Source of the DNA: Phalacrocorax aristotelis
Taxonomy: Eukaryota; Chordata; Aves; Suliformes; Phalacrocoracidae
Assembly (NCBI RefSeq): GCF_949628215.1
Contig: NC_134285.1
Span: 26,841,500 to 26,905,499 of the forward strand
Reading direction: 5' to 3'
Length of the DNA: 64,000 bases
Numbering within the stretch: position 1 is the stretch's first letter; each line of letters opens with the position of its first letter. The position numbers and the translations under genes are program-made. Below are positions 948-60,836 of the stretch, in pieces. Below the pieces are notes generated by a model, which made no database searches, had not been told where the DNA came from, and was given only the letters and a program-made list of their open reading frames with translations.

Positions 948-23553
<22,606 letters not shown>

Positions 23554-34584: not shown

Positions 34585-35648
34585 GGGGAACCAATAGGGT
34601 AGGGAAACAGTATGGAGCAAAACAGCACAAGGACATCCTTCCACCCTCACCAGATCTTTGCAAAAATGGCTACAAGGCCAGCCCTGTGAACAGAACCTGA
34701 CGGACAAACTATTGTTCATCCATTGCACTTTGCTGGGTTCCAGATAGAGAGGAAGGAGCTCCAGGGCCATTTTCCTCTGTGTCCTCCATCACAGCAGCCT
34801 CCTTTCCTCAGGGCAGGCGCCATAGCAGCAATCAGCTTTGTGGGGCCTTTGCAAGGGACCAGTCTTTCAGCATCATTGTCATGGGAAGGACAAAGCATGA
34901 GCTGTTAACAAGCTGTTCTGTCAGCTCAGTTATCACAGGTTAGAAGAGATGGAGGTCACAGACCTTTACCTGATTCACTGGTAGGCTGATGATTATGGGC
35001 CATATCGTACACTTATGCCCTGGTCCCCAGTTAGCTACAATGGAGACCTGCTTGGGTGCACTGCAGCTGCTGTGCCCTCGTTTTCTTCCCATGTAACCCA
35101 GGGTGCAGATGGGCAGGGAGGGGAGGGTGGTTTGCTGCATGCCCAGGTCTCATCCCAGTGTGTACTCAAGTTTCATTGTTGATTGATTTGATGTGCAAAG
35201 GTTTTTTAGGCAAATAAATAAATAAGAACAGGCACAGTTCTCTAACAAGTAATGTCATTTAATGAATGATATACTCTAGAAAATAGAAACTACCCAGATG
35301 CTGGTTGGTTGGTTGGTCTGTTTGGGGCTGGGGGAAGGCCCTTGCTTGGACACAAAATGCCTTCTCTGGATTCTTTTGTCAGCATTTAGTGTTGCTGGAG
35401 ACAAGGAAGCATCCATATCTTGAAAGAGACACTATGGGGGGCCGTTTTTTTCTAAATTGTGGAAAGTATGCAGAACGACTTCCCATCCTGTCTCATTGGG
35501 CAAGTGACATGAAGGGCTCAGAGCTCACCAATATCAGATGATTCATACCTAAAGGGGATAGACTCAACCAAAGGTACGTACCCACAGTTCAGTCCTCTAA
35601 AATCATTGGAGACTTCTCACTTCACAGAACATGTTGTGAGCCCCGGTG

Positions 35649-36075
35649 TTATTGCACTTCTTTCTGGGTGCTTTTCTGCACGTGTTGTGTCTCTTCCCTC
35701 AAGGTCTGGCTGCTAATTCCAGGGAATATGCTTTTCAGAATGTCACAGTACACCATGTACAGCTCTGGGTCTATTTTGGGCTTGGGCAGAGATTGGGAGT
35801 TGCAGGCCTGTTCAGTGACTGAGTGCTGTAGCAAGTAGACATCGCTGAAGAGCGCAGTTAGGATCTTGTGTGCAGCCTTGTAAGGGTCATCTTCGGACTG
35901 CACCATTGCCTTGAGCTCCGTCAGGGTATAGCCGTTGTAACGCTTGCTGTCTTCGGCCAGGGGTTGCACAGTCTCACCAATGTGTCTCACTTTCCACTTC
36001 AGGCATTTCAGTTCTTCTTTAACATCCTCTAGTTCTTTCTCCATAGTTTGGAATTCCTTTGCGGTTACAAATCTC
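35649..36075 (-). CDS. BEN-domain protein, last exon (coiled coil + BEN-like domain)
   Basis: On -, the acceptor ttctttccttggcag opens the exon at 36075. The frame runs 142 codons, counting the split Arg, to TAA at 35651-35649. A Lys/Glu-rich heptad-like stretch (KEFQTMEKELEDVKEELKCL) suggests a short coiled coil. About 20 residues later comes a segment fitting the BEN pattern: a helix with ILTALFS, then L..HSVTEQ, a KPKIDPELY block, an IL.SIFPG helix and a final basic helix. BEN domains are all-helical DNA- or protein-binding modules of chromatin factors (NACC1, BEND3/5/6). The final helix lacks the common N..C/K ending, so function is uncertain. The layout, coiled coil then C-terminal BEN, resembles BEND5/BEND6, but the sequence is not one I recognise. 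Confidence 0.75.
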
Positions 36076-36590
36076 CTGCCAAGGAAAGAAGTGGCAGACA
36101 CAGTGTGGAGTTCAGAGGCTCAGAGGGGTGAAATCAGCCCAGCTTGCCTGGGGTCGGACTGCAGAGCCTGAGGTTTGGGAAGGGAGATACCAGCCATGTC
36201 ACTGAATACCATCCCCAGCCCTTATCTGTCAGGCTTCGTAGTATCAGCAGGTTTTCTCTCTGCTTGTATAGGGAGAGATGTGCTTTCTCATTTGAAAGAA
36301 AATGAGGCACCTTGAAACTGCCCTGTTGGAGGAGCTGAGGTTGACAACCTGGCCCAGGGACGGTCCTGTAATCGGGTCTGGAGAGCTAAATGAATATATG
36401 GAAAATATGGTATTTTGCTTCTTGGATAACCGGGTTTAGTGGGAGCATAGGGTAGTAACTGGAAAACAAATGCTGGGAACATTTAAATCATAAAAGATAT
36501 TCACATATTTTTTTATGAGGGGCTCTTAATGACCCTACACCAAGTTTAGTCATTTGAGGACTTAAACATGTGTATGGTCTGGATACGTAC

Positions 36591-37196
36591 CTTTCATGAT
36601 CAGGATCTTCCAGATCTGATTCAAAACCCTTTCCTGTATTCTTTAATCCAGTTTTAGAATAGCCAGGAGACTGGGAACTATCTTCAGGAGTCATTGTTGC
36701 TGGAGGCCTTGTGCTTTTCCTGGTTGGGGTCAGTGTGTGAGCTGATGATGAAGCTTGTACGTTTTGTGCTGTGTGAGGACAAAAGGTGTAGAAGGAATTT
36801 GCATTGATCCCTGGACTGACTGTAGAGGAGTCAGAGTATTGCTGTGGCTTGGCTGAGCTGCATGTTAGACTGAGCCTGGGGCTGGCTGGGCAAGATGCTG
36901 GAATAATCTTTGCTCTGAATGGGCTGGAACATGATATTGCTGATTTTTTGTCTCTTTGCTCAAATGGTTGAGGGCTTGGTGATTCTCCTGGGGCCAATCT
37001 AGTGATGGAGGCAATGTCCAGCAGGGTTTGATCCTGAACCATGGAGATCTGGCTGGTTGGTTCTGATGAAAGTGAAGAGCTGCTTGATGTGTCGCTGGAA
37101 GAGCTTGACATAGCGAATGGGGGTATTTTCTGAGCATTATGGTCCCTCCTGTTCCTCTGCGTGCTAGTGACGTTTAGAGCTGGGTGTTGTGAAGCC
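36591..37196 (-). CDS. BEN-domain protein, upstream exon (Ser-rich linker)
   Basis: On -, acceptor gtttgtctttctttag, donor CATGAAAG|gtacgt. It enters in phase 2 (first base G completes a codon) and leaves in phase 2 (AG|G, Arg), matching the next exon. It encodes about 202 codons without a stop, low in hydrophobics and rich in Ser, Thr and Pro, with a Ser cluster (MSSSSSDTSSSSSLSS) and an acidic end (ESDLEDPDHE). An in-frame ATG at 37111-37109 with G at -3 could start a 315-aa protein. The 28 codons before it are also open, so an upstream coding exon is equally possible. No family is recognised for this part; it is probably disordered. Confidence 0.7.
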
Positions 37197-38649
37197 CTAA
37201 AGAAAGACAAACACACACTTTTTCCTCTGGACTGGGCTAAAGACTTGTAAGATGATTTTAGGCCTATTTTGGGACGATTTTAAGCCTGTTTCCCATAACT
37301 GCATTTCCCCATAGGCTGATTTGCTTCTCAGGTCTGTATAAAAGCCTCTGCTTCTCATGACCAAGAACAAAGTGTTTGAGAATAAGGCACATAAATTCAG
37401 GACTAGTTCCTCCCTGGTGCCAACTAAGCATTCATCAGCTATCATCAGTGTGATAATCACTGTCACGTCAGTTTTCTCCTTCCCAAAAGTCATACAGCTC
37501 TGTGAGAACCAAGGATTTGGTGCTGGGGAAGGACAGGAAGGGAAGAAAACTACTGTCATATCAACTGTGACAAATTCCAGTAAGAACACAAGAGGATAAA
37601 ATATGGCTTGCAGGTTGCCACAGCACCCACCCTTGATCATCCCTGCAAAGTGTGAAGATCTGCCTCCACCTTGGACCCACACACTTCAGTCTCCTGGTAG
37701 CTCTGCACAGTTACCCAGTGAATTAGGGGATGAATAAACAGATAAGATAAAACCAGAAGGGCAGCATAAAATGACATCATTGTTCCTGTGGTACCATTAC
37801 AGGACATCTCTTTTATACAGCTCGGTGTGTTAAGGACTTTTCTTTCCCCCCTAAGCTGTAGACTGTGTACAGGGCTGACCAGCTATTTTAGGTGGCTGGA
37901 AATGCCAACTGTGTGGGATGCCAGGCTATCTCTCCTTAATATTGTTTCCTGTACTTTTCTCTGGCTGCTGCCAGGCAGGAGAGATCCCAATGCTTTTCTT
38001 TTCTATGACTAAATTTTACTTATTTGGCAAGACTGATGGCAAGAGAGGAAGATGTACTCCTGTAGATTGGAATTGTCCTGATGGGTAGCAAATGCAGCTA
38101 GAAGTGCCTTGACCTTGAAGGGGAACACAAACATACCCACTGTGCAGATCATGATTCAGGATTTCTAACAGCCAAAGGACATGACAAACTTCTGTAGCAA
38201 TACCAGTGACCAACTGAGTCTTCTTGTGCATCTGGTATATTCATATTCTTCTTGTGGTGGAAGACAGCAGAAAATCCTGGTCTGGATGGGTTATACAAGA
38301 TCTAGTGCACAAAGTCCTGTCCTGTTAGTACCAGTGGCTTGAATTAGCTACATATTCCACACTTCTCTACCTCCCTGCACCTTTCTCAGTGTCAGATGCA
38401 ATTAAACACCAAATTTTTAAGGCCCTAAAGAGCCTGCCTTACACTTACTGGCTTCAGTAAGGTTAATTAAGGCCTTTGCTAGAGCACAGCGTAATTACCA
38501 GGTTTAAATCAGAGTTTTATAATAGGAAAATCAGACAGTAACGGAGCTACTGCATAAAAGCAGAGCCAAAAAGAAGCATAAAATGAGTTATATAAAAGGC
38601 GGGAAAGAAAACAAGAACACACATGTCAGAGGGAGTACTTTTCCCCAGA

Positions 38650-51418: not shown

Positions 51419-60836
<9,418 letters not shown>

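Follow-up and report, generated by a model that had tools for sequence, protein, structure and literature searches.

The stretch of DNA considered here, called the window, covers 64,000 nt of the genome of Phalacrocorax aristotelis (assembly GCF_949628215.1, contig NC_134285.1, also C10, positions 26,841,500-26,905,499), and the genome searched with it amounts to 1.28 Gb. A plus-strand open frame at 5004-5285 matches PF14652 of Pfam, which we take to be the KATNIP-type domain, and presumably KATNIP-like exons run along the same strand from 5.0 kb to ~22.1 kb, the later ones being recognised by eye. On the minus strand, exons at 51438-51605, 56.4 kb, and 60.7 kb are assumed to be GSG1L-like from their motifs. 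Between these two sets of exons, on the minus strand, is a gene of two exons, 36591-37196 and 35649-36075, that join in phase. The first-pass annotation had proposed a BEN-domain gene in just this interval, made of two minus-strand exons with good splice sites and matching phases, and both its position and its structure agree with what is described below. The features of this gene are as follows, C13 denoting the sequence that carries an unnamed paralogue in the same genome.

35258-35263, minus strand: ATTAAA, a candidate polyadenylation signal ~390 nt past the stop (pattern only)
35649-36075, minus strand: exon 2, the terminal coding exon, with coiled coil and BEN, and the stop TAA at 35651-35649 (open frame, acceptor, phase, codon usage, homology to C13)
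35652-35936, minus strand: conserved module from an NGYT motif through the BEN to the C-terminus, common to the C13 paralogue (BLOSUM62 local score; predicted BEN fold)
35676-35879, minus strand: stretch under the match to Pfam BEN, PF10523, profile positions 1-61 of 76
35970-36062, minus strand: predicted long helix or short coiled coil directly ahead of the BEN module (AlphaFold2 helix; C13 aligns there too)
36076-36590, minus strand: phase-2 intron, 515 nt, GT-AG
36591-37196, minus strand: exon 1, rich in Ser, Pro, and Thr, presumably disordered, with in-frame ATGs at 37111, 37042, and 36694 (long frame, strong acceptor and donor)
37197-37198, minus strand: acceptor AG of exon 1, phase 2, score 6.9, in the top 0.23% of AGs
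37811-37817, minus strand: TATAAAA, a candidate TATA box in a putative proximal promoter (pattern only)

Elsewhere in the window, a remnant of a CR1-like retroelement lies at 9520-10281 on the minus strand, whose 254-codon frame matches reverse transcriptase (RVT_1, 85.1 bits), and a polypurine tandem repeat of the GGAAA type, with a period of 5-12 bp, occupies 18194-18376 inside the KATNIP region. At gathering scores, Rfam returned no match in the whole window.

The splice sites of the gene are strong. Scored with a hand-entered matrix and ranked as shares of the minus-strand GTs or AGs, the donor of exon 1 is in the top 0.84% of GTs, and the acceptor of exon 2 (36075) is in the top 0.08% of AGs; four GSG1L-like sites scored with the same matrix ranked in the top 0.27-1.2%. 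Starting at the 37197 acceptor, the joined frame holds 343 residues; starting at its first in-frame ATG, at 37111, it holds 315. The strong phase-2 acceptor at 37197 implies a further exon on the 5′ side, and no splice donor with a score above 5 occurs between 37231 and ~37950. A tblastn search of the window for a counterpart to the N-terminal exon of the C13 gene gave a best E of 1.0, and a two-sequence profile that included a hand-entered BEND5 gave 0.31 at best against window ORFs of at least 25 residues. The candidate first exon of the C13 gene had four matches in a genome search, none of them in the window and none a second copy (next best E 0.94). A short exon reading MEEP, which ends at the donor by 44579, has a fitting phase and might be a 5′ exon, but it is not claimed here.

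Could the two exons then be alternative 3′ coding exons of GSG1L, which lies upstream on the same strand, so that the product is a GSG1L-BEN fusion? The last GSG1L-like exon found has a phase-2 donor at 51437, which suits the phase-2 acceptor of exon 1, and a hand-entered version of the mammalian GSG1L tail was not found in the window from 51438-51605 downstream to 22 kb. This missing tail is weak evidence because the query was entered by hand, and phases agree by chance about one time in three. Moreover, a separate candidate N-terminal exon exists for the C13 paralogue, and a BEN at the C-terminus of a membrane protein would be an odd construct. We regard a fusion as very unlikely.

The coding evidence differs from one exon to the other. 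Codon usage was scored after training on 1406 codons of other genes in the genome, and the controls were 47 noncoding ORFs of at least 80 residues from 23-35 kb and 38-51 kb, with background counts from the same stretches. Exon 2 outscores all 47 and is coding. Exon 1 has a negative score, above 10 of the 47 only, which its composition, rich in Ser, Pro, and Thr, may explain; its coding frame is still the best of the six, over the whole exon and in either half. This composition bears out the Ser-rich region of the first-pass annotation. From stop to stop the frame of exon 1 has 263 codons, the longest among the listed window ORFs of at least 90 residues, and none of 60 simulated 64-kb windows contained a frame that long (longest 246). 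Exon 1 had no match in Pfam and none in PHROGs, and its comparison with the upstream exons of C13 scored 39 (shuffled mean 36, maximum 60), with no excess similarity. Exon 1 is less certain: it is supported by its splice sites and frame length, and no homologue was found. Two weak PHROGs matches of exon 2 (E 0.059 and 0.16) were judged to be due to chance.

What does exon 2 encode? Its 78-residue domain, submitted alone, reaches 24.2 bits with Pfam BEN, above the cut-off of 23.2, while longer queries remain below it (22.1 for the whole exon 2 protein, and 21.7); other Pfam families match the window protein with E from 0.0067 to 0.13. The gene is absent among the nine matches listed in a genome-wide search with PF10523. 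Against the PDB, the window protein alone finds BEND6 second, at E 0.87, after an unrelated chain at E 0.14. The C13 protein alone finds BEND6 at E 0.0008, and a two-sequence profile of both proteins finds BEND6 (7yul) at E 1.5e-5, the best of the 12 matches listed and one of the two named proteins whose layout the first-pass annotation had thought similar. The C13 gene is itself an accepted BEN gene by Pfam (43.8 bits), and it aligns along nearly the whole of exon 2.

Predicted structure adds to this picture. An AlphaFold2 model of the exon 2 protein was built on an alignment of five sequences from this genome; as BEN sequences were included, the fold evidence is not independent. The model has a pLDDT of 81.7 and presents a helix over residues 5-35, the short coiled coil that had been expected, followed by predicted helices at 51-58, 64-75, 78-83, 103-116, and 122-140, the third and fourth of which are separated by a long loop. 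In Foldseek, ranks 1-17 among the best 50 of 69 matches (E up to 10) are all BEN structures, with no E-value of 0.001 or lower among the matches. BEND6 7yul superposes with a TM of 0.78 on its own length and an rmsd of 2.0; among the matches listed, BEND6 has the highest TM on target length and BANP the lowest E. A model from the single sequence is poor (pLDDT 67.2), and its Foldseek search has no BEN structure in the best 50 of 85 matches. Exon 2 is therefore predicted, from the five-sequence model, to adopt the five-helix BEN fold.

A sceptic might see in exon 2 a chance helical open frame that merely resembles BEN, and could cite the E-values of the other Pfam families, the E of 0.87 for BEND6 with the window protein alone, and the outcome of the single-sequence model. 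The C13 paralogue, aligned over nearly the entire exon, comes close to refuting this view, and the two-sequence profile and the ranks of the fold search also speak against it, so that coincidence is scarcely credible. On these profile and fold comparisons, the window gene encodes a BEN protein, and the C-terminal BEN-like domain of the first-pass annotation holds.

The paralogue deserves closer attention. Queried over the whole genome, exon 2 finds G000:C13:10943734-10944177 at E 1.8e-6, with 27% identity over 137 residues, and among the four matches listed, E falls below 1 for this one and the self-match alone. The reverse search from C13 returns the window at E 4.1e-6, with two of the three matches listed below E 1. 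The pair scores 131, against a shuffled mean of 31 (sd 5.1, maximum 52, n=500), and the module from NGYT through BEN scores 105 in a BLOSUM62 local alignment, against a shuffled mean of 25.2 (sd 4.5, maximum 45, n=500). The two genes have in common a single terminal exon that holds coiled coil, NGYT motif, and BEN, the residues VQK in the last helix, and, by eye, a phase-2 acceptor ahead of the coil: an AG with an open frame of matching phase behind it is present upstream of the coil in C13, at a distance of 3-4 codons. They differ in the charge of the BEN, which is basic in C13 and acidic in the window, and in a candidate first exon, Tudor-like, that belongs to the C13 gene and for which the window has yielded no counterpart. 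Being reciprocal best matches with the same coil-BEN exon, the same intron phase (by eye in C13), and an uninterrupted BEN in each, the two genes form, as far as sequence comparison goes, a two-gene subfamily. New here, beyond the first-pass annotation, are the paralogue on C13, a BEN exon without interruption, and the acidity of the BEN domain.

BEN domains are also known from viral proteins, according to PMC11472053, and one may ask whether the gene was captured or derived from a virus or a mobile element that carries BEN. The intron phase common to a cellular paralogue tells against such an origin, as does the two-sequence profile, whose best listed match in the PDB is human BEND6. No second DNA copy was found (the search skipped very common words), and one scan for viral relatives with two short patterns gave 375 pattern matches and no confirmed relative. 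An origin of this kind is highly improbable.

Another question concerns the place of the pair within the BEN family. The nine PF10523 matches in the genome are four BEND3 domains, C13, BEND6, BEND7, BEND5, and a NACC-like gene, names that we assigned by eye; BANP, BEND2, BEND4, and NACC2 loci were not recognised among the nine. In BEND5, BEND6, BEND7, and the NACC-like gene, the match ends at profile positions 45-46 and a donor follows, whereas in BEND3, C13, and the window gene the BEN is unbroken at this point. The window BEN scores 108 with C13 (z 19.1) and 67 with BEND6 when the two BEND6 exons are joined (z 9.7), or 47 with the first BEND6 exon alone (z 5.2). With the four BEND3 domains it scores 33, 35, 49, and 40 (z 5.9 for the top one and 1.5-3.7 for the other three), and with first BEN exons only, it scores 40 for NACC, 32 for BEND5 (z 2.3), and 23 for BEND7. 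The C13 BEN scores 67 with the first BEND6 exon alone (z 11.2), followed by BEND5 at 46. By these scores BEND6 is probably the family member closest to the pair. This holds firmly for C13 but less so for the window gene, because the first BEND6 exon scores about the same with it as a BEND3 domain does.

Nearness is not orthology. A locus on C3, named by eye, encodes a near-copy of the solved BEND6, which rules out the window gene as the BEND6 orthologue; BEND6, a BEN-solo CSL/CBF1 corepressor, resembles it in that its lone BEN is C-terminal and has a long loop 1, but differs in the intron that splits its BEN after profile position 45. BEND5, BEND7, and NACC are also ruled out as orthologues, as the BEN of the window gene is uninterrupted and they have separate loci, likewise named by eye, on C6, C1, and C23. 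BEND5, which we take to have a similar layout (N-terminal domain, coiled coil, single BEN), has a split BEN whose first exon falls far short of C13 in its score with the window. The distinction from BEND5 and BEND6 made by the first-pass annotation is borne out, since each has its own locus in this genome. BEND3 resembles the window gene in keeping its BEN domains in one uninterrupted exon, but it has four of them.

To our knowledge, none of the nine human BEN genes is located at KATNIP-GSG1L. The nine human BEN proteins named in PMC10206803 and PMC11472053 are BANP, BEND2-7, NACC1, and NACC2. Within open-licence papers, none joins "BEN domain-containing" with GSG1L, which is weak evidence, and names such as "BEND5-like" and "BEND6-like" occur in none. 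Both genes may already be in public annotation under a locus number.

The charge of the domain differs from that of its relatives. At a pI of 5.5 and a net charge of -3, the BEN of the window gene is acidic, while those of C13 (+9) and BEND6 (+7) are basic. According to PMC10206803 and PMC11472053, solved BEN domains insert their fifth helix into the major groove and touch the minor groove or the backbone with loop 1; the base contacts that PMC10206803 reports for this helix of BEND6 are R254, N261, N262, and K265. At these four positions, read from the two-sequence-profile alignment to BEND6 with the last two extrapolated without a gap, the window has E, Q, K, and Q, and C13 has E, Q, K, and R. 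The acidic BEN suggests that DNA binding of the window protein may be altered or lost; taken together with the replaced base-contacting residues, weak or altered binding can be expected from sequence.

An acidic BEN among basic relatives also suits the main rival to a working gene, namely a BEN paralogue that is not expressed or has lately begun to decay, in which exon 2 is open by descent and exon 1 is chance open sequence. The borderline Pfam score, the N-terminal exon missing from the window searches, and an exon 1 that neither codon usage nor homology supports point the same way. Against it are two fully open exons with strong splice sites and matching phase, a frame in exon 1 longer than any in the simulated windows, and the strongly coding codon usage of exon 2. 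We consider decay unlikely. The reading that we prefer, and hold to be probable, is a real and apparently intact gene for a small, presumably nuclear BEN-solo protein, paired with that of C13 and proposed to be a chromatin factor.

How might such a protein work? The layout appears to be that of a BEN-solo protein, in part by prediction: an N-terminal part that is rich in Ser/Pro and presumably disordered, then a short coiled coil, then a single BEN at the C-terminus. The coiled coil would pair two chains, either with itself or with the C13 protein, the BEN module would be docked on DNA or on another BEN protein, and chromatin co-factors could be recruited by the disordered part. As the DNA contact of the window BEN itself is expected to be weak or changed, specificity would come from the partner. 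The outcome, by analogy with other BEN proteins, might be repression or boundary activity: PMC10206803 describes CSL corepression for BEND6 and boundary activity for BEND4 and BEND5. In PMC11472053, BANP is described as discriminating methylated DNA only when oligomerised, via the coiled coil or other parts.

A bolder reading, which we consider doubtful, is that birds, and perhaps other non-mammals, have a tenth and an eleventh BEN gene that were lost in mammals, the acidic window member acting as coiled-coil partner or dominant antagonist of the basic, DNA-binding C13 protein. The first-pass annotation had suggested that the gene could be a lineage-restricted chromatin factor or a BEND paralogue lost in mammals. 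A further vertebrate pair beyond the nine human proteins would widen the family and would offer a natural case of basic and acidic BEN partners. If the pair was lost in mammals, accounts of BEN function built on mammals (Notch repression, chromatin boundaries, and CpG-island binding) would be incomplete.

Two observations concern the surroundings of the C13 gene. Its candidate first exon, G000:C13:10940740-10940907, matches SGF29_Tudor at E 0.034, below the cut-off, and we take it to resemble the N-terminus of BEND5. In the nearby stretch G000:C13:10884000-10903999 are two receptor-like genes that presumably resemble OPRL1 and NPBWR2, and these neighbours suggest that the C13 region matches human 20q13.3.
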